A stretch of DNA of 64,000 bases from Chaetoderma sp. LZ-2023a (lineage: Eukaryota > Mollusca > Caudofoveata > Chaetodermatida > Chaetodermatidae): assembly GCA_034401795.1 (NCBI GenBank), contig JAVVLW010002922.1, positions 1 to 64,000 of the forward strand, read 5' to 3'. This document shows, piece after piece, positions 2,005 through 37,277 of this stretch. Position 1 is the stretch's first letter; each line of letters starts with the position of its first letter. The notes beneath the pieces were generated by a model. That model was not told the origin of the DNA, ran no database searches, and saw only the letters and a program-made list of their open reading frames with translations. A program made the translations under genes and the position numbers.

Positions 2005-2072
2005 TAACACATGCAACTACCAAGAGCCTGAAGACCGAGCCTCTGTGGGGCGGAGAGGCCGGGTCAGTATCT

Positions 2073-7717: not shown

Positions 7718-8624
7718 CTGAAACAGGACAAAGGACAGGGACAATGAGCAAGATAGTTAAGGTTAGCGAACTCAAAACCAACTAAAAGAGAGGACAGGAT
7801 CATCAAGATCAGAAATCAAGAAGAACCAGCCATGGACAAAACGTTAATTGTTAATAAAAAAGTCAAGGCCGATTATGACGTCATCACTCTCGTGACCAAA
7901 TTAATCGATCCGCAACAAGCACCAAGTGCAAGAACGAATTGTATAAGTAAACGGAACATTTCCGTTGAATTGGCATTTCGAGTACACAACAATCAGATAT
8001 ACAGAGATAACTCCTTCCAATTCTAGCATTGGCAAAAAGGGAAATTATCTCCCCTTTTGTTTACAATAATTAGATACCTGATCCTTGTATAGACAAACCA
8101 TCCAACGTGATGAACCGGAGAACTCCACCATAGTACGCCTCTACATTCTCTCCACCTATAGGGGAAGGAATTGGAGCAAGAGGGCAAAGTGAGAAGACCT
8201 TTATAACAGGCCTCCAACTCACTGAACATAGACTTTTTGGTTAGATAACCTAACAGTATTAGTAGGAAATGGAACCGTGGTGGAGAGAAAACATATCCTC
8301 TTGTGCCGAGAAGTCCATCAAAGCGTCTATGCGATACCTGTGGACAAAACACAAAGAGAAATGAGACATATGAAGCACCATGTTGTAAAAAACCAACATA
8401 ATCAGGCGCTAATCACGGTAAGCGCGAGTCCCGGAAATACATTAAACCGGGACAAAACACGCTAGCATATCAAAGAATTCACCTGATAAAGCGATCCCGC
8501 TCCTTCTAAAGGCGAATCCTCCCTTTCCGACATGCTTCCACCAAAAAATAATCGTCAAACGTGAGCAAAAAACAAGGTAACGCGCAGAAAAGTATAAAGA
8601 ACACAAAACCGCATGTAACCCTTT

Positions 8625-8818
8625 GCCAATAAATGAGCAAAGAGGAAGTAGTAGTCGGCGCATGCGCGGTGGTGGGGCGAGCATCCGCCGGACTACCTCT
8701 GACTCCCTGCCCAGTAGGGGCACCTAACTGTTTTTAATCTGAGTGTTTTATTGAGTGAAAGCCGATATTTAGCAATATCAAAAGTATTAGGGAGGTAAGT
8801 ATACTCTTGATGTGAAAT
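8625..8818 (-). repeat. Copy A 5' terminal inverted repeat
   Basis: Inverted match to 1830-2004, with a unique outer tip (atttcacatcaagagtat in sense). The palindrome GCGCATGCGC at 8658-8667 is also a match to the alpha-Pal/NRF-1 motif and could serve as a promoter element (inference). Confidence 0.9.
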
Positions 8819-9947: not shown

Positions 9948-11172
9948 GATATCAATTCATTACAGAAGGCTATATCAGATGCCACCTGATACCCATCATA
10001 AAGCAGCGTTTCACACTATAACTCAAATTAGCTACCTGTCTGTCAGCTCCATCTCAATAGATGATAGCTACAGTATACCAGTGGTCTACCATTCAATGTT
10101 GTCAAATTACTAGGGAACAAATGACCACAATGACATACCAACAATGTCCAGTTTGCGTCATGGAAGTGGTAGCGATGACCCAGGCTCGATTTCAGCACTA
10201 ACCTGTTAACCCGAGGATAGTAGAATTTCACACAGGTTAGTAAAACTACACCTGCGCTAACCTGTCGTGGTTAGTAATGCTCTCAAAAGAGGAAAGACGA
10301 AAAAACACTCATAATGTCATTGTATTCAGTACCCACCAAAAATTGACAAAAGAACAGATTTTCTGATAGCTTCAATGCTTTAGTGAATATTTTGAAATTA
10401 ATTTGTCCGAAAAGGCCTAAGGCAGCAATGGCTTTCCGGACAAGTAAATTTCAAAATATTCAATGGCTCTGTACGGTTGCCATGGAAATGAGTTTTATAG
10501 GGATTCATCAGTGAATGGATTAAAGAAGTGATCAGCTTTGAGCTTACAATCATTGAAATTGGGTTAGTGAAATTTGCTGCGGGATAGTAAAATCAATGAT
10601 GCACTATTCCGTCTGGGTTACTAGAATAAATCCTTAAAATCTACCCCATACGATTCCTTAAATTAACAGCACAGAAAGGGGGCTAATTTATTTACAATGA
10701 ATCGCCATGGGATCAAGAACAATATTTCTGGTGTAGCGATATTTTTTTACATCTTTAAGGTCTCATTTAAAATTTAGTTTGAATCTAATCTGCTGAAAGC
10801 ACATTTAATTATTTTAACCTATTACAAAATGTCTGTTTACGCACATGCACAGGAGTGTACATACATATATAAAAGAGTTTGTGTATACATGTATGACTGT
10901 GAATGTAATACAATCAACTTTATTATAACAGAACTGTATTTATGCACAGGTACATAATGCCATATAAGGCATCCACAACAGACAATCACTTAGCCCATAG
11001 TATTCAGAATAAGGCAGATTGCTCAATAAAGCAACAACAAAAGTGTCAGTTCGAATATAACAAGTGAGAATGGCCTGTATATAGCCGCAAAATTATTTTG
11101 TCCAAAATGTTACCACTGACCCACTTATAATATCTGCAGGCTAATAAACTCCATCGCTCAGAGAACTCTTAC
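9948..11172. other. Intron sequence, no feature seen
   Basis: AT-rich DNA between the MITE and the next LRR exon. No ORF, repeat match to other parts of the window or RNA gene could be supported. Confidence 0.5.
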
Positions 11173-11252
11173 CTCAATTTCGAACATCCTTCCCCAATGA
11201 CCTCTAAAGCAGTGTTTATCAGCGTTTTACTCATACTGAGATTCAAGTGTTC
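11173..11252 (-). CDS. LRR protein exon 8
   Basis: 80 nt between acceptor atgtattttag and donor gtaagag (minus strand), entering in phase 0 and leaving in phase 2. It reads EHLNLSMSK, then TALEVIGEGCSKL, the core and tail of a cysteine-containing leucine-rich repeat. It follows exon 14036-14073 in frame, giving KIKTL-EHLNLS. Confidence 0.75.
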
Positions 11253-11707
11253 CTAAAATACATGTACAATAACAATTTTAGAAAATTACATACCTCGCTC
11301 TGCATTAATAGGTATGTGTGTATGTAAGGATGAGAGCAAGTGTTTACCCATAAATTGACCCTGACCATGGAAAAGCAGTCCATTTCCAAGAAGCCATAAT
11401 AGTTCAGGAATGCCTCAGAAGTCGCATTACATACAACTTCTAGGAAAGTGGCCTATTTTACTAACAGTGGAATGCTGCTTCTACGACACTGTTTGCATAT
11501 GGACTGAATGTTTATACTTTCCTGGATAATTTATGAAACACGAGGCTAAAGCTTCATTCTGAGACATTAAGTTGTGTCTGAGCTGTACTGTATAACAGGA
11601 ACATGAAGATTTAATGCGCTGAACGAATGTTATGCTCTTATCACTGTAACAGTTACTGTTCTATTCTACAATCAACGCAGACTAATTTACATTGCCGAGT
11701 ATCTTCA

Positions 11708-14008
11708 ACAAGAGGCACAAAGTACCTGTATCATTCACCTGTAAGAACACGATATCAAGCAAAAACATGGCACAAATGAACAATTATATTGGAAATGTGA
11801 GAATTTCTGTACAAAGTATGGATATCTAAATTCGAAATGTAAAAATTTTAACAAGAAATATGAACATTTAGGTTAGAGATTTAAGAATTTTGGGAAAAAA
11901 TGCAGAAATTTTCGCTCGAAACAAAGAAAGAGAGCTACAGGTCCATGACACTCAGCTACATTTACACAAAATCATATAAGAATGTGAAAGTTTTGATTTT
12001 CAAAATCGATCAACCAAACAAAGTACAATTTTGATATATTAATGGCGCCCATTTTTTCTTATTAGTTTCACCTGAACAAACATAAATTGTATAAATAGTC
12101 CACAATCATATTCACCAAATTGTGACAGATTTTTGGATACGTTTTAATGTAAACTACGGCATTTCAGATGATCACGAGACAAATACTTCAATCCAATTCT
12201 ATTGAACAAATAAGTATGTGAGCTTTTTGCCACAGGCTAGATGATGTTTCTTGAGTTCCATATCAATTGGCCATAGCTACTGGCCAAGTCAACTAATCAG
12301 ATTTATTTGAACATCCAGGTCAAGTAATCAGATTCAAATGCTAAATTCATTTTCAGTAGAACCCATGTAGGTCCATCACCATATCTGCAGTCAAACTTCA
12401 TAAACCAACAACAACTCAAGTTTGACTGTTTGATGGTGGACAAAATTTTAGCTGTGAGTAGCAGTTCAATAAACCACCATGTCTCTTAGTCAGTCAGTCA
12501 GGCGGTCAGTAAGTAACAAAAGCTTATTCAGGGCTGTTGTTTCAAGAGTTTTTCATATAAAGTAATTAAATGTGGGGGAAAATTCTGCCTGTGGAGTCCT
12601 GAAGACCAAGGCCACAGTGAAACAATTAAAAATTCTTCCAAATGCCAATGACATGATTAGTTAGTTAGTTCAACAGTCGGTCACAAAAGCTTATTCTGGA
12701 CGGTCGCTTCAAGAGTTTTTCGTATACAGTAGTCAAACTGGGCATGTATGAGTTGTAGGCTTCAGGTATGTGTCGCATCAAAAGTAGGTCAGTGTGACCT
12801 ACTTTTCTCGCTTCACCCACAGCTACTGAGATTCTATCAACCTCGTTTCACAAATCAGCTTCCACTGCTACATGCTTGAATGATTTTGGTCATTAATCAT
12901 ATCCTATAAATTTCATTCCAATACATGCAGCGGTTAGAAAAAAAGTTTCTGTCTAAAATAGCTCATCCAATACGGCCGCCAGACAAATTCTCAACTAGGT
13001 TGTCTTGAACAAACTTCTGTCAGCTATTGCGCTAGATGCTGTTTCTAGAGTTTCATGTCAATTGGTCAAATGTTTCTGTAATACATCATTAAAGGTTTTT
13101 CATATAATTAATAGGTTAATATCATGAAATTCAAGTTGGTCATGCCCAGTTTGACCACCCAGAATAAACTTTGCTTGAACAAACTGGTCAATCAATCTGA
13201 ATAGAAAGTGTCAAATTCGTATGCAGCGTACTCTATAACCTACACAGTAGAACCTCTCAAAACGGGGGAGACCATTTTGAACATGTGAAAATCCATCAGC
13301 CAAAGAATAAATTTTGATTGGTCTATGGCCGCTATGTTTTTTCAACGATCAACTTCCCTTGAACAAACTTGAATTGCATTTCTTCATGAATTATATTTCC
13401 AAAATTTCTGCACAATCACTTCAGCAATTATGGATGAAAAATAATTTTTGTAAGCCACACAAAATGGCTGCCACACAAATTGACCAATGATATTCTTTTT
13501 GACAAACTTGCTTCAGCTCTCGCCATAGATGAACTTTCGGGAGGTTTAAATCAATCTGTTAATTGGTTTTAGAGAAGATATTCAAACATGTTTTAAAAAC
13601 TAGTGCAAAATTCAAGATGGCCATAAACTATGACAAAAAGATGCTCCCTGTCAAATTTGTTTGAAATCAGCGCAGTGATTCTTGAGAAATGCTGTAACCC
13701 TTTAAAGGTCAAGCTGGCAAAAACCGGCCTCTGCAGTGGTCTTGAGGAATGTCCATTGCTTGTCAAGAGAAGACTATTTCTGAAAATTAACCACTGGAAT
13801 GCCTGGCTCGATAACCGAGCCAGTCATTCAAGTGGTAAATTTTCAAATATAGCCCTCTTTTAGCCTGCAAATGGACATTCAATAAGCAAATATTTAGATT
13901 TTCTTGACCAAATTCGACCATTAAAGGGTTAATAGAGAGAAGGTGACAATGGATAACAGGCAGTCACCATGGCATTATCTCATTTGTCCCGCTCAGGCCA
14001 GGTGAGTT
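11708..14008. repeat. Unclassified long dispersed repeat, copy 2
   Basis: Begins with 'acaagaggcacaaagtacctg' (like 53627) and ends with 'ctcaggccaggtgag' (like 1082 and 55434). Contains the family's internal phrases ('cccttgaacaaactt', 'aaatggctgcc'). More diverged than copies 1 and 3, and interrupted by the MITE at 13698-13928. Confidence 0.6.
13698..13928. mobile_element. TTAA-flanked MITE (piggyBac-like), copy 2
   Basis: 231 bp with ends CCCTTTAAAGG and, inverted, CCCTTTAATGGTC. The right flank is TTAA (13929-13932); the left has drifted to GTAA. A central palindrome lies around 'ggctcgataaccgagcc'. Inserted in dispersed repeat copy 2. Confidence 0.7.
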
Positions 14009-14035
14009 AACATAGGACTAAAGACAAAATCTTAC

Positions 14036-14073
14036 CAAAGTCTTTATCTTTGCTAACATCTTCAGACCATCTA
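14036..14073 (-). CDS. LRR protein exon 7
   Basis: 38 nt between acceptor ctctagtttcag and donor gtaagat (minus strand), entering in phase 1 and leaving in phase 0. It reads (T+TA = L) DGLKMLAKIKTL, the segment that links ...LELAECFET to EHLNLS. A nearer AG (ctctag, four bases upstream) would put a stop in frame, so the second AG is chosen. The frame stays open further upstream to 14242, so the true left border could be longer. Confidence 0.65.
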
Positions 14074-14426
14074 CTGAAACTAGAGAGAAACATTTGATTA
14101 ATATTTTCATAGATCTACTAATATCAGTTACCCACTGCCCTAGTTGGCTGTTTGTCTGTGCCATATTCACTTGATTTATTGTCCGTACTTGCCACATGTT
14201 ATCAAACAGAACAACATCATCATCGCTCAAACAGTGAGTCATTCACCAGCAAGGTGATGTGCTGCAAGCATGTGTAAGTTTATGCCTTTACCTGTAGCAA
14301 TATTATCTAGATATAACTTGTTATTCATACAGTGATATAAAATGTATACCATCAAACAGGTTCACTAGATTTTATTATTTCCAATTAGTGACAAGTCCTA
14401 TAGAAAACATGGCCATACTGTAGATT

Positions 14427-14640
14427 AAACGAAATCTAGGATTTCTTTTTTCACGAGAGAGTTGATACTTACCTCCCTAATACTTTTGATATTGCTAAAT
14501 ATTGGCTTTCACTCAATAAACACTCAGATTAAAACAGTTAGGTGCCCCTACTGGGCAGGGAGTCAGAGCGTAGTCTGGCGGATGCCAGCCCCACCACCGC
14601 GCATGCGCAGACTAGCACTTCCTCTGACTAGATTATTGGC
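14427..14640 (-). repeat. Copy B-outer 3' terminal inverted repeat
   Basis: Inverted match to 28342-28534 apart from the outer tip. Carries GCGCATGCGC near 14600. Confidence 0.9.
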
Positions 14641-14710
14641 TGACACACATGCAACTATTAAGAGCCTGAAGACCGAGCCTCTGTGGGGTGGAGAGGCCGG
14701 GTCCGTATCT

Positions 14711-14808
14711 AGGGAGGTAAGTATCAACTCTCTCGTGAAAAAAGAAATCCTAGATTTCGTTTATTTCACATCAAGAGTATACTTACCTCCCTAATACTTT
14801 TGATATTG
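14711..14808 (-). repeat. Copy B-outer internal complementary region
   Basis: 14711-14762 is the inverted 52-bp copy of the element's left tip (14427-14478). 14763-14808 is the inverted copy of its right tip (near 28489-28534). Confidence 0.9.
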
Positions 14809-15344
14809 CCAGAATTCGAAAGTGAATCTGGCGGGAGGGAGGCGAGGTCAAAAGACCAGCTCATCCCTATACGCTTTTCTGCGTTTAAGGCACTTAAACT
14901 TCTGAAACTGTAAGAAAAAACAGTCAGGATTTGACTAACCATCGGATAACACCACCGATGTATGAGAGATGACCGAATGTCATATGCGCTCCCCCCCCCC
15001 CCTCCTTCCTGGGAGGAAGAGTCGACTGACCTCAATGTCCTATACGCTCTCTACGTACAAGTGCCATGTACTACAGGACAGAGACGAAAAAACTCCATTT
15101 TCGTAACTCTCAACAATGAACCACACAAATACACAAACCATCACCATATTAATAACGGGTAACGTGACAATACAATCAACAACGGACAACACATGAATAA
15201 GACTGACCTTGTTGAAATGGCTGCTGACATCATCTTCCCATTGGTAAAGACTGATGCAGGCCCAAAAAAGTGGGTGTTTCCATAAATTAATTGTGAAATA
15301 TATAAGTAATGAGGAAAAAACCTCCTCAAAAAATATAAACCGAG

Positions 15345-15637
15345 TTATTTTTTCAAAATAGACAAGGCGAGAGGATTAGAGGTGTCACGGAGATAATGGT
15401 CTGTAAAACTTGACTCACAGTGCCACTGAGCCACCGACATAATATCATCCACAGGGACCCCATTAAATAGGGCAGTGGATGTCACTACGCCGCGGACACT
15501 GTGAGCCTTGGCCACGTCAACCTGCTTCCCGGTGGCGGATTTATGGCAAAACTGAATGCATTCAACAATCCACCTGGAAATGGTGTCCTTAGAAGCCCTG
15601 CCATGGGGTTCAATATATGACAACCATAACGCTGACT
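15345..15637 (-). pseudogene. Recombinase C-terminal part of B-outer (split gene)
   Basis: Encodes the last ~97 residues of the tyrosine recombinase, including HSVRG and the catalytic tyrosine in TDHYLRD, to a TAA stop. The gene is cut at 15637/15638 inside the triplet region for TDQS by the insertion of B-inner and resumes at 22688. Confidence 0.93.
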
Positions 15638-15852
15638 AAAGGAAATCTAGGATTTCTTTTTTCACGAGAGAGTTGATACTTACCTCCCTAATACTTTTGA
15701 TATTGCTAAATATTGGCTTTCACTCAATAAACACTCAGATTTAAAACAGTTAGGTGCCCCTACTGGGCAGGGAGTCAGAGCGTAGTCTGGCGGATGCCAG
15801 CCCCACCACCGCGCATGCGCAGACTAGCACTTCCTCTGACTAGATTATTGGC
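15638..15852 (-). repeat. Copy B-inner 3' terminal inverted repeat
   Basis: Inverted match to 22494-22687. The outer tip has one substitution from the usual form (aaagg instead of aaacg). Confidence 0.9.
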
Positions 15853-15922
15853 TGACACACATGCAACTATTAAGAGCCTGAAGACCGAGCCTCTGTGGGG
15901 TGGAGAGGCCGGGTCCGTATCT

Positions 15923-16020
15923 AGGGAGGTAAGTATCAACTCTCTCGTGAAAAAAGAAATCCTAGATTTCGTTTATTTCACTTCAAGAGTATACTTACCT
16001 CCCTAATACTTTTGATATTG
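15923..16020 (-). repeat. Copy B-inner internal complementary region
   Basis: Arms 15923-15974 and 15975-16020 are inverted copies of the left and right element tips. The arm still reads cgttt where the element's own tip now reads ccttt, so the tip mutated after insertion or came from another template. Confidence 0.9.
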
Positions 16021-16553
16021 CCAGAATTCGAAAGTGAATCTGGCGGGAGGGAGGCGAGGTCAAAAGACCAGCTCATCCCTATACGCTTTTCTGCGTTTAA
16101 GGCACTTAAACTTCTGAAACTGTAAGAAAAAACAGTCAGGATTTGACTAACCATCGGATAACACCACCGATGTATGAGAGATGACCGAATGTCATATGCG
16201 CTCCCCCCCCTCCTTCCTGGGAGGAAGAGTCGACTGACCTCAATGTCCTATACGCTCTCTACGTACAAGTGCCATGTACTACAGGACAGAGACGAAAAAG
16301 CTCCATTTTCGTAACTCTCAACAATGAACCACACAAATACACAAACCATCACCATATTAATAACGGGTAATCGTGACAATACAATCAACAACGGACAACA
16401 CATGAACAAGACTGACCTTGTTGAAAATGGCTGCTGACATCATCTTCCCATTGGTAAAGACTGATGCAGGCCCAAAAAAGTGGGTGTTTCCATAAATTAA
16501 TTGTGAAATATATAAGTAATGAGGAAAAACCTCCTCAAAAAATATAAACCGAT

Positions 16554-17588
16554 TTATTTTTTCAAAACCGACAAGGCGAGAGGATTAGAGGTGTCACGGA
16601 GATAATGGTCTGTAAAACTTGACTCACAGTGCCACTGAGCCACCGACATAATATCATCCACAGGGACCCCATTAAATAGGGCCGTGGATGTCACTACGCC
16701 GCGGACACTGTGAGCCTTGGCCACGTCAACCTGCTTCCCGGTGGCGGATTTATGGCAAAACTGAATGCATTCCACAATCCACCTGGAAATGGTGTCCTTA
16801 GAAGCCCTCCCATGGGGTTCAATATATGACAACCATAACGCTGACTGGTCGGTGCGCCATGCCGCCGTACGTTGTTTGTACCGGCGCAGCGCCCGGACGG
16901 GACACCATGCTTTAGAATTAGGATCATATCTAGTTAAAGCAGGCAAAATAATAGGTTGACCTGGATATTTCAACGACTGATTTTTAGCCAAGAAATTAAT
17001 CCTAGGTAGCAGCTTAAGGCCTTCCCCTGAAACCACAAAACGGTCATCCTCGGCTGATAAGGCATGAATTTCACTCCTACGCCTAGCCGAGGCCGCAGCA
17101 ATTAAAAACACAGTCTTCAGTGTTAATAGTTTCATAGAAATGGAACTAAGTGGTTCAAAAGGCTTATCACCTAGTACTTGAAGCACTAGCGATAAACTCC
17201 AAGACGGAATCACAGGTGGATTCCTTGGTCTTAGATTGCCCATGCCTTTAATTAATACATTCAATGTATTTACTTCATCACTTCCCCTCTTAGCCAAGGA
17301 AGGAATAACAGACATTAATGCTGACTTATAACCAGCAATAGAGTTAGGCTTGAGGCTATAGGCATCATAGAGGTGACAGAGGAAATCAGCTACTACTTGA
17401 ATAGATGAATCCATTGGATCAATACATCTTTTTGAGCACCATTCTGCAAATCTGTTGATTTTATAATTATATGCTCTGGAGGTTGACCCCCTCCTGGCTT
17501 TGGCCATAAACATGGCTGCTTGCTCAGAAAAGCCCTCCTTAATTCTAGATTCCTTGACAACATCCACGCAGTCAATCTGAACATTGAC
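16554..17588 (-). CDS. Tyrosine recombinase (YR), copy B-inner
   Basis: Intact recombinase region of about 345 codons to a TAA at 16554. Arginine of box I in ASARRRSEIHAL, H-x-x-R in HSVRG, WH in AQWHCE and the tyrosine in DHYLRD are all present. The domain overlaps the last ~65 codons of pol in another frame. The start is not resolved: the frame is open upstream over the whole pol gene to the gag stop at 19524. Expected to recombine the circular element with a target through a very short core. Confidence 0.88.
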   Translation of the reverse strand, partial: VNVQIDCVDVVKESRIKEGFSEQAAMFMAKARRGSTSRAYNYKINRFAEWCSKRCIDPMDSSIQVVADFLCHLYDAYSLKPNSIAGYKSALMSVIPSLAKRGSDEVNTLNVLIKGMGNLRPRNPPVIPSWSLSLVLQVLGDKPFEPLSSISMKLLTLKTVFLIAAASARRRSEIHALSAEDDRFVVSGEGLKLLPRINFLAKNQSLKYPGQPIILPALTRYDPNSKAWCPVRALRRYKQRTAAWRTDQSALWLSYIEPHGRASKDTISRWIVECIQFCHKSATGKQVDVAKAHSVRGVVTSTALFNGVPVDDIMSVAQWHCESSFTDHYLRDTSNPLALSVLKK

Positions 17589-19774
17589 GGATTGTTGTGA
17601 AGGGCCTTGCCCTGGAAGATAATATCGTCCATCAGAGGCAGAGGAACCGGATTGCAGACCAGAAGGTCCAGCAGATCCGTATACCATGATCGGCTTGGCC
17701 AATCCGGGGCGATCAGAAGCACTTGGCATTCCTCTTGTCTGATTTTCTGAAGAATTTTTGGAATCAGGATTGCTGGAGGGAATGCGTATGCATACATTCT
17801 CCCCCAGCTGATAGCTAACGCATCTGTTGCGAAAGCGCTTGGATCCGGAATCGGAGAGACGTACGTCGTCATCTTCGCATTCTTCTTCGTTGCGAACAAA
17901 TCGATGTTGGGTTTCCCCCAATGGTCGAACAGACGATCCGCCACACATTGATTTAGTTGCCATTCCGTGGGTAAAACACTCATCCTTCGGCTCAATGAGT
18001 CTGCTAGCAGGTTTAACCTTCCCGGAATATGAACTGCTTTCAAGGTAATCTGGTGATCCAGACACCAACAAAGCAGTTTCCATGTCATCATACAGAGACT
18101 GGGCGACTTCGTTCCGCCCTGGCGGTTTATGTAAGTCACAACTGTTGAGTTGTCTGAACGAATAAGAACAATCTTGCCCTGAACTTTCTGTAAGAAATGT
18201 TCCAGGCCCAGGACTACTGCTCTTAGCTCCAGTAGATTTATATGTTCCTGTGACTGTTCCAGATTCCAAAGCCCTGATATCGTGGATTCTTCCAGGCAAG
18301 CTCCCCAGCCCTCCATCGATGCATCTGTATACACAGTCACCTGAGGGTGGGGAGGGGTTAGCAAAACCCCCGGCAAGAGATTCTCTGTATTCAACCACCA
18401 TTGCAGGTGGTGAATCAGAGGCGCCAACACTGACACATTCGAGTCCAGCGAACCTGTACTCTGGGTCCATTGTGTCATGAGAAACAACTGGATCGGCCGC
18501 CTGCGTAAGGCGGCCTGAGGAATGACTGGTTCCAACGAAACCATCAACCCCAGCATTCTCAAGTAAACCCGTGCCAGGACATGACGACTGTCGCACACTG
18601 ACTGAATCAACGAGATGAGTATTTGAACTCTCTCCTGAGTAGGATAAACATATCCTGTCTCTAGATCGAAGAACATCCCCAGGTAAACAAACTTCTGGGA
18701 TGGAGTCAGCTCTGATTTTGGGAAATTGATCATCCAGCCCAAGTCTGTGAGAATTTTCAAAACAATCTCCAGATTGGCGGACAAACTTTCCCGGGTGTGC
18801 GCTTTCAACAGCCAGTCGTCTATGTACGTGTGGACTGCTATGCTTCTCCTGCGGAGGTATGCTGTGATCGCAAGAACCACACGGGTGAAAACCCGAGGAG
18901 CCGTGGAAATTCCGAAGGGCAACACCCTGAATTCCCACTGTCTGCCCTGGAATGCAAATCTCAGGAAGCGACAGAAACTCCCGTGGATGGGGATGTGGAA
19001 ATAAGCGTCCTTCAAATCTATCGACGCCGTCCACATCCCCCTCTCCAACCCCGCCAACACCGAGTGCACCGTTTCCATCTTGAAACTGGGCGTCTCGATG
19101 AACTTGTTCAATGGCTTGAGGTTGAGAATCGGTCTCCACCCTCCGGTGCGTTTTGTTACTAAGAACAGGGTTGAATAGAAGCCCGGACACCTTTGTGCCG
19201 GCTGAATAGCTCCCTTTTGTATGAGGGAATTTATCTCCTCCTCGATACACAACCTTTGCTCTGGATCTCTCGGAATGGGAGTCCAGACTGGCACCAGAGA
19301 CAGTCGCGACGGCGGGCCTGTCACCCACTCTGGATGATACCCGACGGAAAGCCATCGCAAGACTAAACGGTCCTGAGTTAACCATTCCCACTCTTGCAGG
19401 TGGCCGGCTAGCCGGCCTCCCACCGGCCCACCTAGGGACCGCGGTGGACACGAGGCATGCAAGAGCGGCACTGTCTCCGTCGCCATACACACCGGCGTGG
19501 TTCTTACCGCGGTAAGCGTACTGTCAGGAACGATAACCACGCCCAGATCCTCGCGCGCCCCGCCCCGCCCCGCGCGCACCTCGGTGCGCGGGCGGCTGCC
19601 TGGCTGACGGCGCCTGAGGAACCTGCGCCCCCCTCGCTGCTGGCCGAATCGCACGCGGCCGAGGCCGACGCTGCGACGGTGGCTGGCCACTGACCTGGCC
19701 AGCACCACCTCGAGCCTGCAGGGGACGATACGCCGGGGCCGCGGCGCGAGCGTTAGCACGACGCAGCACATCAA
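17393..19774 (-). CDS. pol: reverse transcriptase, RNase H and C-terminal domain, copy B-inner
   Basis: 793 codons open, stop at 17393. An Arg-rich N-terminal part overlaps gag by 251 nt; RT follows with DLKDAYFHIP around residue 255, LPFGISTAPRVFTR, and YIDDW around residue 325. RNase H, about residues 455-590, has the four acidic positions in TDAS, LLELRAV, RSDNSTVV and NLLADSLSR. The tail (PNIDLFATKKNAK, AYAFPPAILIP, LLIAPDWPSRSWY) matches the region where DIRS elements are reported to carry a methyltransferase-like domain; I see no clear catalytic motif for that. Pol is in +1 relative to gag. There is no conserved ATG, so translation may use frameshifting or re-initiation. Confidence 0.92.
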   Translation of the reverse strand: MMCCVVLTLAPRPRRIVPCRLEVVLARSVASHRRSVGLGRVRFGQQRGGRRFLRRRQPGSRPRTEVRAGRGGAREDLGVVIVPDSTLTAVRTTPVCMATETVPLLHASCPPRSLGGPVGGRLAGHLQEWEWLTQDRLVLRWLSVGYHPEWVTGPPSRLSLVPVWTPIPRDPEQRLCIEEEINSLIQKGAIQPAQRCPGFYSTLFLVTKRTGGWRPILNLKPLNKFIETPSFKMETVHSVLAGLERGMWTASIDLKDAYFHIPIHGSFCRFLRFAFQGRQWEFRVLPFGISTAPRVFTRVVLAITAYLRRRSIAVHTYIDDWLLKAHTRESLSANLEIVLKILTDLGWMINFPKSELTPSQKFVYLGMFFDLETGYVYPTQERVQILISLIQSVCDSRHVLARVYLRMLGLMVSLEPVIPQAALRRRPIQLFLMTQWTQSTGSLDSNVSVLAPLIHHLQWWLNTENLLPGVLLTPPHPQVTVYTDASMEGWGACLEESTISGLWNLEQSQEHINLLELRAVVLGLEHFLQKVQGKIVLIRSDNSTVVTYINRQGGTKSPSLCMMTWKLLCWCLDHQITLKAVHIPGRLNLLADSLSRRMSVLPTEWQLNQCVADRLFDHWGKPNIDLFATKKNAKMTTYVSPIPDPSAFATDALAISWGRMYAYAFPPAILIPKILQKIRQEECQVLLIAPDWPSRSWYTDLLDLLVCNPVPLPLMDDIIFQGKALHNNPSMFRLTAWMLSRNLELRRAFLSKQPCLWPKPGGGQPPEHIIIKSTDLQNGAQKDVLIQWIHLFK

Positions 19775-21587
19775 ACTGCTCGCGCAGCGCCCTCTGGTTA
19801 TTCACCAGGGTGACCGTCTCTTGGAGGTGGCGACATCCCTCACCTCCAAAAAGACCAGGGCCCGTCATAGGCGTATGCAGTAGCCTATTGTACAGGTCCT
19901 GAGACGGGCACAGATTGTCCAGGGCAAACGTGCGTCTTGCCCTGACACTCCTGGTCACCGCCCGAGTCACACAGTCCAGCGCCAGGTTAATACCATCCTG
20001 GATGGTTCGCTGGACAGTGACCGGACTTGGCTGGCGCGATGCGGATGCCGTTACTACCCCCTGTAACAGCTGGGAGACGTGGGACAGAGCGGCAATCGAA
20101 GCCCTCCCACTCTCCTCCGCATCACGCAACGCGGTATTCGCCGAACGCAACGCGTTCGCGCACAAGACACCCGTGTCAGAACGGGAGCCTGGCCGCGCAT
20201 CCTCACCCAAAGCCGCGCGGTCATCCACGCTGGGCTTGGGTACCACACCGTACCGCTGGTAATCCAGGGGCACGATGCGACAACGCCTGGCCACCTCGCG
20301 AGGGGCCTTCGCGAGACGTCCACTCGACTTAATGGACGACTCCGCCGCCTTGAACATGTCAACGACATGCTCCGCCAGCGGCAGAGAAGGCATAGCGTTA
20401 GCAGTCGGTTTCCCAGCTAACCACGGCGTGTGAACACGCTGGCTAGCCGACTGCTCCACGGGCAGATCAGGCCTAACGCTCACCAACCACTGGCAAGCGT
20501 CATACCAATCCTCCTCCGTGGCTAACTGCGAGCGCTCTACAAGACGGGGTCCTTCGTCTTCCTCCTGAGCGCAAGCAGTAGAGCTTGACGGCGGGTAAGC
20601 TGATACACCTGGCAAGCCAGGGAAAACACGCGGGCCTGACAGCACCGGCATGAGAATATCACTGGTTTGACCAGGAGCAGGCACCGTGGCAGAGCGCGGG
20701 GTATATATAGTCTCACCACGGGCCCGGCCAGCACCAGCAACACCCTCGGCAAGCCGAGGTATGCGGTACCGCTGGCCATCAGCAGCGCCCTGGGCAACCA
20801 CCTGAGCCGCGGACTTTACTCCAGGGTGAGTAAAACCGTGGAACAAGGCGCCTGCATTCCCCGCGAGGGGTGCACAAACGTCTTCATCCATGTCCACGTC
20901 GTCAGACGGCGACCCTAGCAGGTAATCCTCATTACCCTGGTCAGAAAGATTAGACCCCGGGTCAGCAAAGAGAGCTAACCCGGGCTGACCAGGAACGGTG
21001 CCATAGGAGGTACTGGCCACCGCGGCGTGCGGATACCCCTGGACTGATAAGCAGCCCGCGGGTTCCAGCGACAACCGTCCACGGTCCCCTATCGGCGCGG
21101 CAATAAGCCTGCTGCCAGGGCCGTGGAACGCCCCCTCTAATGGGGCCACCTCTGAATCGTCGAACAACGGAAGCGGACTAAGGAAAATCGATCCAGAGGC
21201 GGGGATTACCTGCTCCGAAGCCGATGATGAGGACAGTAAAGGATTTGGTCCAGGAAGCATGCCACGAAGCAACCCTGGAACCAAATCCTTTATTGTCCTC
21301 TTCATCTCTCCCAACATCTCGGTCCGGAAGGCCTCCATATCCACCGCGGACGAGACCTTCCCCTTACCCTTCCTACTTACAACCTCTCGTTTCCGCTTCT
21401 TCTTCTTCTCCTCCTCTACCACCTTGTCCGTCGCCTGTAAGCAGCACAAGAATTCGGACATTAACTCGCCCCCCCAGTGCTTACATATGTCACAATTAAC
21501 TAATGGACCACAAGGGCTACATTGACAGCACAGATGCGGCCAGAACTTATCCTGCAGAAAACGACCACAGGACGCGCAACCCGGTCC
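19524..21587 (-). CDS. gag-like ORF1, copy B-inner
   Basis: 687 residues, stop TGA at 19524. Cys-rich N terminus (CASCGRFL, CCQCSPCG, CDICKHWGG), a Lys/Glu coiled region (EEEKKKKRKREVV), a long low-complexity middle, a conserved region with LPLAEHVVDMF and CRIVPLDYQRYGVVPKPS, and an RG-rich tail. No ATG lies in frame upstream of the Cys module. The exon border is set at the 3' splice-like tttgccctgtttcag ending at 21588. Likely the structural nucleic-acid-binding protein of the particle (inference). Confidence 0.78.
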   Translation of the reverse strand, partial: GPGCASCGRFLQDKFWPHLCCQCSPCGPLVNCDICKHWGGELMSEFLCCLQATDKVVEEEKKKKRKREVVSRKGKGKVSSAVDMEAFRTEMLGEMKRTIKDLVPGLLRGMLPGPNPLLSSSSASEQVIPASGSIFLSPLPLFDDSEVAPLEGAFHGPGSRLIAAPIGDRGRLSLEPAGCLSVQGYPHAAVASTSYGTVPGQPGLALFADPGSNLSDQGNEDYLLGSPSDDVDMDEDVCAPLAGNAGALFHGFTHPGVKSAAQVVAQGAADGQRYRIPRLAEGVAGAGRARGETIYTPRSATVPAPGQTSDILMPVLSGPRVFPGLPGVSAYPPSSSTACAQEEDEGPRLVERSQLATEEDWYDACQWLVSVRPDLPVEQSASQRVHTPWLAGKPTANAMPSLPLAEHVVDMFKAAESSIKSSGRLAKAPREVARRCRIVPLDYQRYGVVPKPSVDDRAALGEDARPGSRSDTGVLCANALRSANTALRDAEESGRASIAALSHVSQLLQGVVTASASRQPSPVTVQRTIQDGINLALDCVTRAVTRSVRARRTFALDNLCPSQDLYNRLLHTPMTGPGLFGGEGCRHLQETVTLVNNQRALREQFDVLRRANARAAAPAYRPLQARGGAGQVSGQPPSQRRPRPRAIRPAARGAQVPQAPSARQPPAHRGARGAGRGARGSGRGYRS

Positions 21588-22493
21588 CTGAAACAGGGCA
21601 AAGGACAAGGAGTATGAGCAACTAGTTAAGCTTAGAAACTCAATCCAACTCAAAGAGAAGGAAAACGATCATAAAGATCAATATACATCAGAAACCAGCA
21701 TAGCGCTTGAATAGCTGATAAACACATAGCCAGGCTGATTATGACGTCATTAATCCCGTGACAGGAAAAATTCGATCCCAACAAAACATCCAAGTGCAAG
21801 GACGAATTGTATGCTGAATGGATAAGTTGACTACACAACCATCAGATACATATAGATAACTCTTTTCTGGCAAAAATGTTAATTATCTCCCTTTGTTTGT
21901 TTACAATAATTAACATCACCACATTATCAATAACTAGATACCTGACACTTTGTATAGACAAACCATCCAACGTGACGAACCGGAGAACTCCACCATCTGC
22001 ACGCCTCTTAACTCTCTCCACCTCATGGGGAAGGAATTGGAACAAGAGGGCAAAGTGAGAAGACCTTTATACTAGGCCTCCAACTCACTGGACATATTTT
22101 TCATTTGGTTAGATAACCTAACAGTGTTAGTAGGAAATGGAACCATGGTGGAGAGAAAACTAACTCTCAGCAACTGTGATGTCACCACCTAGCGTCATAC
22201 AGACCTGTGGACATAAACAGAAAGAGAAATTAGTCCTAGGTAGCACCGAGTTGACCTAAACCAACTAACTAAGGCGCTTATCACGGTAAACGCGAGTCCC
22301 GGAAACACAATACACCGGGAAGAAAACTCGCTAATTTTACTAGAAGTCACCTGATTTAAAGGTCCTAAGTCCTCCTTTGGCGAATTGATACATCCCGCCA
22401 TCCAAAAAAGTGACTATCACACCAAACAACACCACTTAAACTAGTTTAAGATAAAGAAAAGCTTCAGCACAAAAAGACATGTGTGAACTCTCT

Positions 22494-22687
22494 GCCAATA
22501 ATCTAGCAAAGAGGTAGTGCTAGTCTGCGCATGCGCGGTGGTGGGGCTGGCATCCGCCAGACTACGCTCTGACTCCCTGCCCAGTAGGGGCACCTAACTG
22601 TTTTAAATCTGAGTGTTTATTGAGTGAAAGCCAATATTTAGCAATATCAAAAGTATTAGGGAGGTAAGTATACTCTTGAAGTGAAAT
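22494..22687 (-). repeat. Copy B-inner 5' terminal inverted repeat
   Basis: Inverted match to 15680-15852; GCGCATGCGC at 22527-22536. Confidence 0.9.
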
Positions 22688-23722
22688 GGTCGGTGCGCCA
22701 CCCCGCCGTACGTTGTTTGTACCGGCGCAGCGCCCGGATGGGACACCATGCTTTAGAATTAGGATCATATCTAGTTAAAGCAGGCAAAATAATAGGTTGA
22801 CCTGGATATTTCAACGACTGATTTTTAGCCAAGAAATTAATCCTAGGTAGCAGCTTAAGGCCTTCCCCTGAAACCACAAAACGGTCATCCTCGGCTGATA
22901 AGGCATGAATTTCACTCCTACGCCTAGCCGAGGCCGCAGCAATTAAAAACACAGTCTTCAGTGTTAATAGTTTCATAGAAATGGAACTAAGTGGTTCAAA
23001 AGGCTTATCACCTAGTACTTGAAGCACTAGCGATAAACTCCAAGGCTGAATCACAGGTGGATTCCTAGGTCTTAGATTGCCCATGCCTTTAATTAATACA
23101 TTTAATGTATTTACTTCATCACTTCCCCTCTTAGCCAAGCAAGGAATAACAGACATTAATGCTGACTTATAACCAGCAATAGAGTTAGGCTTGAGGCTAT
23201 AGGCATCATAGAGGTGACAGAGGAAATCAGCTACTACTTGAATAGATGAATCCATTGGATCAATACATCTTTTTGAGCACCATTCTGCAAATCTGTTGAT
23301 TTTATAATTATATGCTCTTGAGGTTGACCCCCTCCTGGCTTTGGCCATAAACATGGCTGCTTGCTCAGAAAAGCCCTCCTTAATTCTAGATTCCTTGACA
23401 ACATCCACGCAGTCAATCTGAACATTGACGGATTGTTGTGAAGGACCTTGCCCTGGAAGATAATATCGTCCATCAGAGGCAGAGGAACCGGATTGCAGAC
23501 CAGAAGGTCCAGCAGATCCGTATACCATGATCGGCTTGGCCAATCCGGGGCGATCAGAAGCACTTGGCATTCCTCTTGTCTGATTTTCTGAAGAATTTTT
23601 GGAATCAGAATTGCTGGAGGGAATGCGTATGCATACATTCTCCCCCAGCTGATAGCTAACGCATCTGTTGCGAAAGCGCCTGGATCCGGAATCGGAGAGA
23701 CGTACGTCGTCATCTTCGCATT
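22688..23722 (-). pseudogene. Recombinase N-terminal part of B-outer (split gene)
   Basis: Continues the recombinase gene cut at 15637. Box I (ASARRRSEIHAL) is in this half. The frame is open up to the junction, after which it runs into the terminal repeat of B-inner and stops. Neither half alone contains the full active site, so no working recombinase is expected from B-outer. The upstream edge is approximate because the frame continues over pol. Confidence 0.88.
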
Positions 23723-25615
23723 CTTCTTCGTTGTGAACAAATCGATGTTGGGTTTCCCCCAATGGTCGAACAGACGATCCGCCACACATTGATTTAGTTG
23801 CCATTCCGTGGGTAAAACACTCATCCTTCGGCTCAATGAGTCTGCTAGCAGGTTTAACCTTCCCGGAATATGAACTGCTTTCAAGGTAATCTGGTGATCC
23901 AGACACCAACAAAGCAGTCTCCATGTCATCATACAGAGACTGGGCGACTTCGTTCCACCCTGGCGGTTTATGTAAGTCACAACTGTTGAGTTGTCTGAAC
24001 GAATAAGAACAATCTTGCCCTGAACTTTCTGTAAGAAATGTTCCAGGCCCAGGACTACTGCTCTTAGCTCCAGTAGATTTATATGTTCCTTTGACTGTTC
24101 CGGATTCCAAAGCCCTGATATCGTGGACTCTTCCAGGCAAGCCCCCCAGCCCTCCATCGATGCATCTGTATACACAGTCACCTGAGGGTGGGGAGGGGTC
24201 AGCATAACCCCCACCAAGAGATTCTCTGTGAGCAACCACCATTGCAGGTGGTGAATCAGAGGCGCCAACACTGACACGTTCGAGTCCAGCGAACCTGTAC
24301 TCTGGGTCCATTGTGTCATGAGAAACAACTGGATCGGCCGCCTGCGTAAGGCGGCCTGAGGAATGACTGGTTCCAAAGAAACCATCAACCCCAGCATTCT
24401 CAAGTAAACCCGTGCCAGGACATGACGACTGTCGCACACTGACTGAATTAACGAGATGAGTTTTTTCACTCTCTCCTGAGTAGGATAAACATATCCCGTC
24501 TCCAGATCGAAGAACATTCCCAGGTAAACAAACCTCTGGGATGGAGTCAGCTCTGATTTCGGAAAATTTATCATCCAGCCCAAATCCGAGAGAGTTTTCA
24601 AAACAATCACCAGATTGGCCGATAAAGCCTCCTTGTCGTGTGCCTTTAACAGCCAGTCGTCTATGTACGTGTGGACTGCTATGCTTCTCCTGCGGAGGTA
24701 TGCTGTGATCGCAAGAACCACACGGGTGAAAACCCGAGGAGCCGTGGAAATTCCGAAGGGCAACACCCTGAATTCCCACTGTCTGCCCTGGAATGCAAAT
24801 CTCAGGAAGCGACAGAAACTCCCGTGGATGGGGATGTGGAAATAAGCGTCCTTCAAATCTATCGACGCCGTCCACATCCCCCTCTGCAACCCCGCCAACA
24901 CCGAGCGCACCGTTTCCATCTTGAAACTGGGCGTCTCGATGAACTTGTTCAATGGCTTGAGGTTGAGAATCGGTCTCCACCCTCCGGTGCGTTTTGTTAC
25001 TAAGAACAGGGTTGAATAGAAACCCGGACACCTTTGTGCCGGCTGAATAGCTCCCTTTTGTACGAGGGAATCTATCTCCTCCTCGATACACAACCTTTGC
25101 TCTGGATCTCTCGGAATGGGAGTCCAGACTGGCACTAGAGACAGTCGCGACGGCGGGCCTGTCATCCACTCTGGATGATACCCGACGGAAAGCCATCGCA
25201 AGACTAAACGGTCCTGAGTTAACCGTTCCCACTCTTGCATGTGGTCGGCTAACCGGCCTCCCACCGGTCCACCTAGGGACAGAGGTGGACACGAGGCATG
25301 CAAGAGCGGCACTGTCCCCGTCGCCATAAACACCGGAGTGGTTCTTACCGCGGTAAGCGTCCCGTCAGGAACGATAACCACGCCCAGATCCTCGCGCGCC
25401 CCGCCCCGCCCCGCGCGCACCTTGGTGCGCGGGCGGCTGCCTGGCTGACGGCGCCTGAGGAACCTGCGCCCCCCTCGCTGCTGGCCGAATCGCACGCGGC
25501 CGAGGCCGACGCTGCGACGGTGGCTGGCCTCTGACTTGGCCAGCACCACCTCGAGCCTGCAGGGGACGATACGCAGGGGGCGCGGCGCGAACGTTAGCAC
25601 GACGCAGCACCTCAA
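23234..25615 (-). CDS. pol: reverse transcriptase/RNase H, copy B-outer
   Basis: 793 codons open with the same motif set as B-inner (DLKDAYFHIP, YIDDW, TDAS, LLELRAV, RSDNSTVV). Differences from B-inner are scattered, for example AHDKEALSANLVIV in place of AHTRESLSANLEIV. Only the recombinase of this element is broken by the nested insertion. Confidence 0.9.
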   Translation of the reverse strand: MRCCVVLTFAPRPLRIVPCRLEVVLAKSEASHRRSVGLGRVRFGQQRGGRRFLRRRQPGSRPRTKVRAGRGGAREDLGVVIVPDGTLTAVRTTPVFMATGTVPLLHASCPPLSLGGPVGGRLADHMQEWERLTQDRLVLRWLSVGYHPEWMTGPPSRLSLVPVWTPIPRDPEQRLCIEEEIDSLVQKGAIQPAQRCPGFYSTLFLVTKRTGGWRPILNLKPLNKFIETPSFKMETVRSVLAGLQRGMWTASIDLKDAYFHIPIHGSFCRFLRFAFQGRQWEFRVLPFGISTAPRVFTRVVLAITAYLRRRSIAVHTYIDDWLLKAHDKEALSANLVIVLKTLSDLGWMINFPKSELTPSQRFVYLGMFFDLETGYVYPTQERVKKLISLIQSVCDSRHVLARVYLRMLGLMVSLEPVIPQAALRRRPIQLFLMTQWTQSTGSLDSNVSVLAPLIHHLQWWLLTENLLVGVMLTPPHPQVTVYTDASMEGWGACLEESTISGLWNPEQSKEHINLLELRAVVLGLEHFLQKVQGKIVLIRSDNSTVVTYINRQGGTKSPSLCMMTWRLLCWCLDHQITLKAVHIPGRLNLLADSLSRRMSVLPTEWQLNQCVADRLFDHWGKPNIDLFTTKKNAKMTTYVSPIPDPGAFATDALAISWGRMYAYAFPPAILIPKILQKIRQEECQVLLIAPDWPSRSWYTDLLDLLVCNPVPLPLMDDIIFQGKVLHNNPSMFRLTAWMLSRNLELRRAFLSKQPCLWPKPGGGQPQEHIIIKSTDLQNGAQKDVLIQWIHLFK

Positions 25616-27425
25616 ACTGCTCGCGCAGCGCCCTCTGGTTATTCACCAGGGTGACCGTCTCCTGGAGGTGTCGACATCCCTCACCTCCAAAAAGACCAGG
25701 ACCCGTCATAGGCGTACGCAGTAGCCTATTGTACAGGTCCTGAGACGGGCACAGATTGTCCAGGGCAAACGTGCGTCTTGCCCGGACACTCCTGGTCACC
25801 GCCCGAGTCATACAGTCCAGCGCCAGGTTAATACCATCCTGGATGGCTCGCTGGACCGTGACCGGACTTGGCTGGCGTGATGCGGATGCCGTTACTACCC
25901 CCTGTAACAGCTGGGAGACGTGGGACAGAGCGGCAATCGAAGCCCTCCCACTCTCCTCCGCATCACGCAACGCGGTATTCGCCGAACGCAACGCGTTCGA
26001 GCACAAGACCCCCGTGTCAGAACGGGAGCCTGGCCGCGCATCCTCACCCAAAGCCGCGCGGTCATCCACGCTGGGCTTGGGTACCACACCGTACCGCTGG
26101 TAATCCAGGGGCACGATGTGACAACGCCTGGCCACCTCGCGAGGGGCCTTCGCGAGACGTCCACTCGACTTAATGGACGACTCCGCCGCCTCGAACATGT
26201 CAACGACATGCTCCGCCAGCGGCAGAGAAGGCATAGCGTTAGCAGTCGTTTTCCCAGCTAACCACGGCCTGTGGTCACGCTGGCTAGCCGACTGCTCCAC
26301 GGGCAGATCAGGCCTAACGCTCACCAACCACTGGCAAGCGTCAGACCAATCCTCCTCCGTGGCTAACTGCGAGCGCTCTACAAGACGGGGGCCTTCGTCT
26401 TCCTCCTGAGCGCCAGCAGCAGAGCTTGACGGCGGGTACGCTGATACACCTGGCAAGCCAGGGAAAACATGCGGGCCTGACAGCACCGGCATGACAATAT
26501 CACTGGTTTGACCAGGAGCAGGCGCCGTGGCAGAGCGCGGGGCATATACCGCCCCACCACGGGCCCGGCCAGCACCAGCAACACCGTCGGCAAGCCGAGG
26601 TATGCGGTACCGCTGGCCATCAGCAGCGCCCTGGGCCACCACCTGAACCGCGGACTCTACTCCAGGGTGAGTAAAACCATGGAAGAAGCCGCCTGTATTC
26701 CCCGCGAGGGGTGCACAAACGTCTTCATCCATGTCCACGTCGTCAGACGGCGACCCTAGCAGGTAATCCTCATCACCCTGGTCAGAAAGATTAGACCCCG
26801 GGTCAGCAAAGAGAGCTAACCCGGGCTGACCAGGAACGGTGCCATAGGAGGTACTGGCCACCGCGGCGTGTGGATACCCCTGGACTGATAAGCAGCCCGC
26901 GGGTTCCAGCGACAACCGTCCACGGTCCCCTATCGGCGCGGCAATAAGCCTGCTGCCAGGGTCGTGGAACGCCCCCTCTAATGGGGCCACCTCTGAATCG
27001 TCGAACAACGGAAGCGGTCTAAGGAAAACCGATCCAGAGGCGGGGATTACCTGCTCCGAAGCCGATGATGAGGACAGTAAAGGATTTGGTCCAGGAAGCA
27101 TGCCACGAAGCAACTCTGGAACCAAATCCTTTACTGTCCTCTTCATCTCTCCCAACATCTCGGTCCGGAAGGCCTCCATATCCACCGCGGACGAGACCTT
27201 CCCCTTACCCTTCCTACTTACAACCTCTCGTTTCCGCTTCTTCTTCTTCTCCTCCTCTACCACCTTGTCCGTCGCCTGTAAGCACAAGAATTCGGACATT
27301 AACTCGCCCCCCCAGTGCTTACATATGTCACAATTAGCCAAGGGACCACAAGGGCTACATTGATAGCAAAGATGAGGCAAGAACCTAACATGCAGAAATC
27401 GTCCACAGGACGCGCAACCCGGTCC
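25365..27425 (-). CDS. gag-like ORF1, copy B-outer
   Basis: 686 residues, stop TGA at 25365, entered through the splice-like site cctttgcctgtttcag at 27426. One residue shorter than B-inner near MSEFLCLQATDK (B-inner and E have a duplicated codon, FLCCLQ, right before the sequence cttacag). Same Cys-rich and RG-rich ends as the other copies. Confidence 0.77.
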   Translation of the reverse strand, partial: GPGCASCGRFLHVRFLPHLCYQCSPCGPLANCDICKHWGGELMSEFLCLQATDKVVEEEKKKKRKREVVSRKGKGKVSSAVDMEAFRTEMLGEMKRTVKDLVPELLRGMLPGPNPLLSSSSASEQVIPASGSVFLRPLPLFDDSEVAPLEGAFHDPGSRLIAAPIGDRGRLSLEPAGCLSVQGYPHAAVASTSYGTVPGQPGLALFADPGSNLSDQGDEDYLLGSPSDDVDMDEDVCAPLAGNTGGFFHGFTHPGVESAVQVVAQGAADGQRYRIPRLADGVAGAGRARGGAVYAPRSATAPAPGQTSDIVMPVLSGPHVFPGLPGVSAYPPSSSAAGAQEEDEGPRLVERSQLATEEDWSDACQWLVSVRPDLPVEQSASQRDHRPWLAGKTTANAMPSLPLAEHVVDMFEAAESSIKSSGRLAKAPREVARRCHIVPLDYQRYGVVPKPSVDDRAALGEDARPGSRSDTGVLCSNALRSANTALRDAEESGRASIAALSHVSQLLQGVVTASASRQPSPVTVQRAIQDGINLALDCMTRAVTRSVRARRTFALDNLCPSQDLYNRLLRTPMTGPGLFGGEGCRHLQETVTLVNNQRALREQFEVLRRANVRAAPPAYRPLQARGGAGQVRGQPPSQRRPRPRAIRPAARGAQVPQAPSARQPPAHQGARGAGRGARGSGRGYRS

Positions 27426-28341
27426 CTGAAACAGGCAAAGGACGAGGAGTATGAGCAACTAGTTAACTGCTTAGACACTCAAACCAACTCAAAGAGAAGG
27501 AAAACGATCATAAAGATCAATATACATCAGAAACCAGCATTGCAAGCTTGAATTGCTGATAAATACATAGCCAGGCTGATTATGACGTCATTAATCCCGT
27601 GACAGGAAAAATTCGATCCCAACAAACATCCCAGTGCAAGGACGAATTGTATGCTGAATGGATACGTCGACTACACAACCATCAGATACACATAGATAAC
27701 TCTTTTCTGGCAAAAATGTTAATTATCTCCCTTTGCTTACTATAATTAACATCACCACATTATCAATAACTAGATACCTGACACCTTGTATAGACAAACC
27801 ATCCAACGTGACGAATCGGAGTACTCCACCACCTGCACGCCTCTTAACTCTCTCCACCTCATGGGGAAGGAATTGGATCAAGAGGGCAAAGTGAGAAGAC
27901 CTTTATACTAGGCCTCCAACTCACTGGACATAATTTGTCATTTGGTTAGATAACCTAACAGTGTTAGTAGGAAATGGAACCATGGTGGAGAGAAAACTAA
28001 CTCTCTGCTGCTGTGATGCCACCATCTAGCGTCATACAGACCTGTGGACATAAACAGAAAGAGAAATTAGCCTTAGGTAGCACCGAGTTGACATAAACCA
28101 ACTAACCAAGGCGCTTATCACGGTAAACGCGAGTCCCGGAAACACAATACACCGGGAAGAAAAACTCGCTAATTTTACTAGAAGTCACCTGATTTAAAGG
28201 TCCTAGGTCCCCCTTTGGCGAAGTGATCCTTCCTGCCATCCAAATCAGTGACTATCACACCAAAATAACACCACCAAGTTATGTTAAAACAGTTTATAGA
28301 GCAAGGAAAAGCTTATGCAGAAAAACATGTGTGATCTCTCT

Positions 28342-28534
28342 GCCAATAATCTAGCAAAGAGGTAGTGCTAGTCTGCGCATGCGCGGTGGTGGGGCTGGCA
28401 TCCGCCAGACTACGCTCTGACTCCCTGCCCAGTAGGGGCACCTAACTGTTTTAATCTGAGTGTTTATTGAGTGAAAGCCAATATTTAGCAATATCAAAAG
28501 TATTAGGGAGGTAAGTATACTCTTGATGTGAAAT
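28342..28534 (-). repeat. Copy B-outer 5' terminal inverted repeat
   Basis: Inverted match to 14427-14640; GCGCATGCGC at 28375-28384. Confidence 0.9.
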
Positions 28535-28715
28535 TGCATTTAAATATATTCTATCCGCCTATAAGCTAAAGGTTAAGATGCCAGCCAACACATACATCCA
28601 CTTCAAAATCTGTTTTTGGTTTTTTTTATAAGTTTTGCTTCAGGGGGTCAAGCTGGTACAGACAATAGATAAATACGAATATGGTGCTAAAATGATGACA
28701 TGTATCTGATATTAA

Positions 28716-28942
28716 CCCTTTAATGGTAATACCGGCCAAAAGTGGCCTCTGTTATGGTCTTATGGAATGTCCATTTACACACCAAGAACCTTTTTTGAAA
28801 ATTTACCATTGGAATGACTGGCTTGATAACAAGCCAGTCATTCCACTGATAAATTTTCAAAAATTGCATTCTCCTGGCCTGTAAATGGACATTCAATAGG
28901 AAGATATTAAAATTTTCTTAACCAAATTTGATCATTAAACGG
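28716..28942. mobile_element. TTAA-flanked MITE (piggyBac-like), copy 3
   Basis: 227 bp with TTAA at 28712-28715 and 28943-28946. Terminal inverted repeats CCCTTTAATGG and CCGTTTAATGATC. Inside, a longer palindrome centres on 'ggcttgataacaagcc', with both arms reading 'atttaccattggaatgactgg' or close to it. The best preserved copy of the family. TTAA duplication and CCC ends are the piggyBac rule; no transposase is encoded. Confidence 0.78.
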
Positions 28943-28946
28943 TTAA

Positions 28947-37115: not shown

Positions 37116-37277
37116 TGATGAATCAAATTCCCTTGATCAAGGAATTGCGCTCAGTCAACAATCTTATTTTCATGTCATAATTAATACAATAAAATTATAT
37201 TTACTGTGTGTTTGTGATGTTGAGTGCTGTGGTCTGCAGATTTAGAAAGTTCCTCCTAGACAGGATCTGAATCATCA

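Follow-up and report, generated by a model that had tools for sequence, protein, structure and literature searches.

DIRS1-like elements are distinguished by a tyrosine recombinase, the hallmark of which is a set of residues comprising R, K, H-x-x-R, H/W and Y. In the excerpts of the literature considered here, integration of these elements is presented as a model, in which a 3-bp junction recombines with an identical target and no duplication arises (PMC3266345). By the excerpts of the same source, half of the 28 DIRS1-like elements published have pol and recombinase frames that overlap over a long stretch, and its table includes elements with unlike termini (PMC3266345). Nested insertion is already known in kind: the excerpts describe DIRS-1 of Dictyostelium as inserting into its own copies, which is ascribed to the recombinase (Cappello 1984, cited in PMC5633606 and PMC3266345). 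In Trematomus fishes, the excerpted text reports centromeric accumulation of DIRS1 elements, seen by FISH, and mentions insertion into pre-existing copies (PMC5941688). A literature search covering titles and abstract openings returned neither empty sites nor a genome-wide target motif for a DIRS family.

Here, we describe a nested pair from Chaetoderma. The window, by which we mean the whole 64-kb stretch that was analysed (positions 1-64000 of the 93,000 on contig C1578, in a genome of 2.44 Gb, G000), holds four copies of one family with near-intact ends. As judged from the sequence, we confirm that one of these, a DIRS1-like element (B-inner, below the insert), lies within a sibling copy (B-outer, below the host copy) and splits its tyrosine-recombinase frame. 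Host copy (14427-28534) and insert share orientation, with the long frames of both on the minus strand. The features are as follows, with a slash marking the border in each junction.

15637-22686, minus strand: inserted element, full length, 7,050 bp (flank alignment, termini and the nested copy L042/L103)
19524-21668, minus strand: first frame of the insert, 714 aa from stop to stop, assigned to gag by its position only (open reading frame)
17393-19801, minus strand: reverse transcriptase/RNase H frame of the insert, 802 aa stop to stop (RVT_1 at 6.9e-22, relatives)
16554-19523, minus strand: 989-aa frame of the insert, stop to stop, with its final third encoding the tyrosine recombinase (open reading frame, alignment, predicted model)
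15924-16021, no strand: internal complementary region (ICR) of the insert (complementary to the joined termini at 97 of 98 bases)
14427-15637, minus strand: 3' part of the host copy, with terminus, ICR and 3' end of the recombinase frame (comparison of termini and ICR)
22687-28534, minus strand: remainder of the host copy, with first frame, RT/RH, truncated recombinase frame and terminus (open reading frames, termini)
22656-25364, minus strand: host recombinase frame as cut short by the insert, with 902 aa from stop to stop (open reading frame)
14712-14809, no strand: ICR of the host copy (complementary to its joined termini, which lie at 14427 and 28534, over all 98 bases)
15631-15651, plus strand: left junction, GCTGACT/AAAGGAAATC
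22676-22700, plus strand: right junction, GTGAAA/TGGTCGG, present on contig C18 too
1790-8818, minus strand: element A, a diverged sibling (empty site on contig C12)
57229-64000, plus strand: element E, an uninterrupted sibling, continuing to 64292 of contig C1578

Elsewhere in the window, 42375-52710 contains the remnants of older and diverged relatives, with ends at about 75-84%, and 37215-37855 is an array of a 42-bp tandem repeat.

A sequence-only reading of this DNA had claimed an insertion without target duplication, had proposed aligning the rejoined flanks with the insert, and had named a duplication at the borders as an observation that would speak against it. Rejoined, the flanks (15338-15637 plus 22688-22987) align continuously with the insert (16547-17146) over 600 bases at 98.5% identity, free of gaps. 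Element E agrees (63382-62783; 98.7% over all 600 bases, 0 gaps), and element A aligns at 92.4% across 594 bases. No border duplication appears in the joined-flank alignment and, by comparison with the uninterrupted copies, no base of the host was lost, which bears out the claim. Both junctions are likewise seamless in four other nested copies (L042/L103, L060/L104, L097/L098 and L100/L101), one of which has a single C/T difference beside its right border. The left junction of the window's insert was found on contig C1578 only.

By sequence, the 7,050 bp of the insert can be placed at 15637-22686 or, equally, at 15638-22687; the ambiguity amounts to one base, a T at 15637 and at 22687. The nested copy L042/L103 has a right flank that does not begin with T. 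Its uninterrupted site reads CATGTCATC/ATACAG and its filled site CATGTCATC-T-AAAC...GTGAAA-ATACAG, so the ambiguous T is the element's own base. As the T is carried by the element, the strict borders become 15637-22686, with GCTGAC/TGGTCGG as the target. The earlier statement that nothing was gained apart from the element thus holds for the seamless junctions, but the border T has to be assigned to the element.

In all four copies compared, the ICR mirrors the copy's own joined ends. A diagnostic variant separates the two members of the nest: the host copy carries GATGTGAAAT in its ICR and at its far ends, whereas the insert carries GAAGTGAAAT in both. Since the host ICR matches the far termini at all 98 bases, including a base absent from the insert, the two halves of the host belong together. 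The GATGTG variant occurs in element A too, where ICR and termini agree at 98/98; for element E the figure is 97/98. The one mismatch of the insert is an AAAG at its own edge, where its ICR predicts AAAC.

All three frames of the insert (714, 802 and 989 aa) are open from stop to stop, as the sequence-only reading had stated. The first frame had no Pfam match. In the pol frame, RT_RNaseH scored 22.6 bits, under the Pfam cut-off of 24.8, and the Pfam profiles gave no match to a methyltransferase domain. Measured stop to stop, the pol and recombinase frames overlap by about 2.1 kb. For the recombinase itself, Pfam returned weak SAM-like matches below cut-off, and searches of NCBIfam and of PDB sequences gave no useful match. 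When the query was aligned with 41 relatives, selected from 120 listed of 475 found, R161, K193, R287 and Y320 proved to be the same in every sequence, and H284 and W310 in nearly all. The predicted model of the domain has a mean pLDDT of 88.9, and its best match in the PDB is Cre (Foldseek E 7.2e-9, TM 0.67). With a tyrosine recombinase, an RT/RNase H, inverted termini with an ICR and no target-site duplication, the insert has the characters of a DIRS1-like element. The recombinase and the RT have matches among JGI proteins from a 4,925-bp contig (P0002 and P0122), at 100% over 85% and 98% over 77%, respectively; DNA of Chaetoderma or of a near species seems to be present in a metagenome.

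The host recombinase is cut after RTAGWRTD and continues for ten further codons before a stop, which deprives it of the H, R, W and Y positions. The two other long frames of the host copy remain open (697 and 802 aa). The claim that the sibling's integrase was inactivated therefore stands as far as the frame is concerned, which is truncated and lacks these four positions; recombinase activity was probably lost with them.

When the genome was searched with the host copy's right flank, contigs C18 (100%) and C12 (99%) matched. On C12, the sequences that border the host copy are joined to each other: window positions 12924-14426 are matched at 99.0%, followed by 28534-31000 at 98.3%, with the empty site GTAGATT/TGCATT. 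Element A has an empty site on C12 as well, GGAAT/AGTGG (GTCATGGAAT/AGTGGC), with 98.8% identity over 1,944 adjoining bases. As a stretch that differs by about 1-2% lacks both element A and the host copy together with its insert, these are young, and the earlier view that the insertion is recent is borne out by this 98-99% identical stretch. C12 is most simply read as the other haplotype, and may instead be a duplicate locus. It is about 1.7 kb longer than the window in the interval 10748-12924, and C12:80454600-80458600, the expected flank of element E, has no window match except a short repeat. One exact pattern did not find an empty site of element E. Among the matching contigs C12 and C18, no haplotype was found that has the host copy without the insert. 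The locus had been described as a clean record of before and after; the uninterrupted sibling copies do show the state before, but a host-only allele was not found.

Contig C18 carries the right junction. Its five pieces before the gap (L030, L033, L036, L037 and L038; 12,201 bases, including 252 N) are identical to C1578, with the exception of 16 unaligned bases beside the gap. The gap (C18:52749-53248, about 500 N) lies within the insert, and beyond it the sequence that was read, 2.25 kb, has no match in the window. Since its pieces equal C1578, C18 is probably the same haplotype and not independent proof. We therefore rejected it as independent support for the insertion, given that it is identical to C1578 and departs from the window beyond the gap.

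The 33-base end word of the family (at most one mismatch) occurs 15,974 times in the genome, and its control 0 times. As a complete element has two end words (left end and ICR), this corresponds to about 8,000 copies, which, were all of them full length, would make up about 2.3% of the genome. We examined 54 elements among the first 100 places listed, which lie on C1 at 2.0-31.2 Mb and thus represent a positional stretch and not a random sample. In the left flanks of these 54 insertions, position -1 is T in every case, -3 is A in 40, -11 is T in 36 and -6 is never A; position -2 is unconstrained (A21 T16 C15 G2). The preferred bases match the right end of the circle junction. On the right, the first base of the flank is T in 10, A in 9, C in 2 and G in 1 of 22 distinct flanks, which were kept from 25 rows after one ICR variant and two duplicates were dropped. 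The target triplet equals the junction's AAT in 17/54 insertions; ACT, the triplet of the window, is the second commonest, with 11. The strict DIRS1 model, in which the target is the 3-bp circular junction, does not describe this family: AAT accounts for 17/54 targets, and the T is the element's own. With no duplication and with identity in 17/54, the model in the literature correctly leaves out a duplication but demands more identity than this family shows. The element supplies its own T, and a loose half-site suffices as target; no identical triplet is needed.

Within C1 2.0-31.2 Mb, the elements are strongly clustered, with 28 of 53 neighbour gaps below 50 kb where 4.4 were expected (the maximum in 5000 simulations was 14). 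Four neighbour gaps on C1 measure 29,234, 29,374, 29,384 and 29,407 bp, and their flanks are unlike (P about 0.003, in a smoothed post hoc test). At L016 (C15:90.46 Mb), two left ends 5,079 bp apart share one flank, a shortened element having been duplicated in tandem together with that flank.

Our data are consistent with a model, which we hold with high confidence, in which circular DIRS1-like DNA was joined by its recombinase into a matching site within a sibling's recombinase gene. In this model, the retrotransposon would be copied to circular DNA with the junction GTGAAA-T-AAACG, and the element's tyrosine recombinase would join the circle into CATAACGCTGAC/TGGTCGG in the recombinase gene of another copy. 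The element would enter with its own T and leave the surrounding sequence otherwise unaltered. Of the putative circular intermediate, what is visible is its predicted junction, in the ICR. The sequence-only reading had called the insertion recombinase-mediated, with which the termini, the target motif and the encoded enzyme are consistent; the circle and the strand exchange by this recombinase we infer.

If a loose motif directs integration, is the window's site itself struck more than once? GCTGACT followed by AAAC or AAAG occurs exactly at five places in the genome, including the window. Two of these, at C1 83.0 Mb and C6 70.0 Mb, are inserts at the same recombinase-gene base in other host copies, in the same orientation and with seamless junctions. 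The remaining two (L094 and L096) have no match at this site; for L096, a weak match of 35 bases falls in another part of the element. With at most two mismatches allowed, a longer pattern returned the three same-base cases and a candidate fourth, at C1:145800379. The host copies diverge (window and C6 1.0%, window and C1 10.2%, C1 and C6 11.1%) and their flanks differ, so the three are most likely separate insertion events.

The recurrence at one base could also reflect a single origin at this site and later spread by gene conversion or homologous recombination, in which case the window might not hold the original integration. This would fit the three copies that share the insertion base, and also the C1 and C6 inserts, which are identical across the 903 left-side bases compared. 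However, host copies that are 1.0-11.1% apart, with unlike flanks, and a window insert whose divergence from the other two is 0.8% at its left side and 7% at its right argue against it, and we consider such a history quite unlikely. An assembly artefact, in which copies from different loci were joined, might be expected in a family so abundant, where best matches are nearly uniform (40 scored), and C18 does break within the insert and continue with sequence absent from the window. We nevertheless regard an artefact as highly improbable: the two sides share one T only at the junction, the host halves pair at 98/98 by their diagnostic base, the same junctions recur at two other loci in other host copies, and the outer flanks adjoin each other on C12. 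That host copy and insert moved together as one 14-kb element is the least credible account, because, although both are missing together from C12, two successive insertions predict that absence equally, and the other two same-site pairs differ from the window's in host copy and insert alike.

Returning to separate, recombinase-mediated insertions, the window's site ranks 114 of 14,078 element positions by a target motif built from the sample without the nested sites L042, L060 and L067. For 185-400 nested copies, this motif predicts 0.27-0.59 hits at the site, and the probability of at least two further hits is 0.03-0.12. The site is thus at most a mild hot spot, largely explained by the motif; a strong hot spot was rejected, since the site recurs, yet with P 0.03-0.12 under the motif. 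That the recombinase gene is a preferred landing site for the family, with active copies tending to destroy each other's integrase, seems unlikely to us; the three hits at one base and in one orientation, with the candidate fourth, against the 0.27-0.59 predicted, would fit it. If true, such mutual destruction would be a built-in brake on the spread of the family. The C1 locus is part of a three-layer nest (L097, L098 and L099; C1:83.02-83.04 Mb), in which one element lies within the recombinase gene of a second, whose flanks match 6288-6343 and 6345-6404 of a third. At C6, the end of another family member lies 80 bases upstream of the host copy, and the two have the same orientation (L100, positions 183-264).

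Nesting as such is not a rare event. With about 8,000 copies, a sibling would be hit about 2% of the time by coverage. In the C1 sample, 2/54 left ends lie inside a family copy (L042 and L060), and L067 lies in a 77.6% relative. The 19 loci retrieved through their similarity contribute 23 left ends, of which 21 are distinct, and two of the 23 are nested: L011, in a recombinase frame, with the rest of its host copy missing, and L018, nine bases inside the end of another element. Together, 4/77 left ends are nested (5 with the 77.6% relative) versus 2.3% expected (P about 0.10, computed with 76). Abundance nearly accounts for this rate, and a two- to three-fold preference may exist; strong self-targeting was rejected as unsupported by these counts. 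Siblings are thus struck at about the rate of their abundance, and the window's case is fairly ordinary. All seven nested insertions found without an oriented pattern (window 15637-22686, L011, L018, L042, L060, L067 and L097/L099) share the orientation of their host copy, where the motif predicts 53% (chance about 0.012, post hoc). This excess could come from instability of large inverted repeats or from assembly loss.

Among the described systems, the Aplysia elements AcaDIRS1 and AcaDIRS2, as excerpted from the published survey, share with the insert an ATT/AAT circular junction (published notation), ICRs and the lack of target duplication, and are shorter, at 5,222 and 5,808 bp versus 7,050 bp (PMC3266345). 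The frames of the insert overlap, whereas that survey, in the part considered, had not seen such overlap in Mollusca (PMC3266345). Regional accumulation of DIRS1 elements is common to Trematomus and Chaetoderma; by the excerpted account, the clusters in the fishes are centromeric by FISH, and those in Chaetoderma lie on part of C1, as determined by sequence (PMC5941688). As in Dictyostelium DIRS-1, insofar as the citing excerpts describe it, a DIRS element sits inside a sibling and its insertion is ascribed to the recombinase; in Chaetoderma, nesting does not significantly exceed the share of the genome that the family occupies. Beside these systems, the Chaetoderma nested pair is a well-documented ordinary case with useful mechanistic detail, and the family's roughly 8,000 copies with intact ends, its empty sites and its nested copies provide base-level data on DIRS integration.
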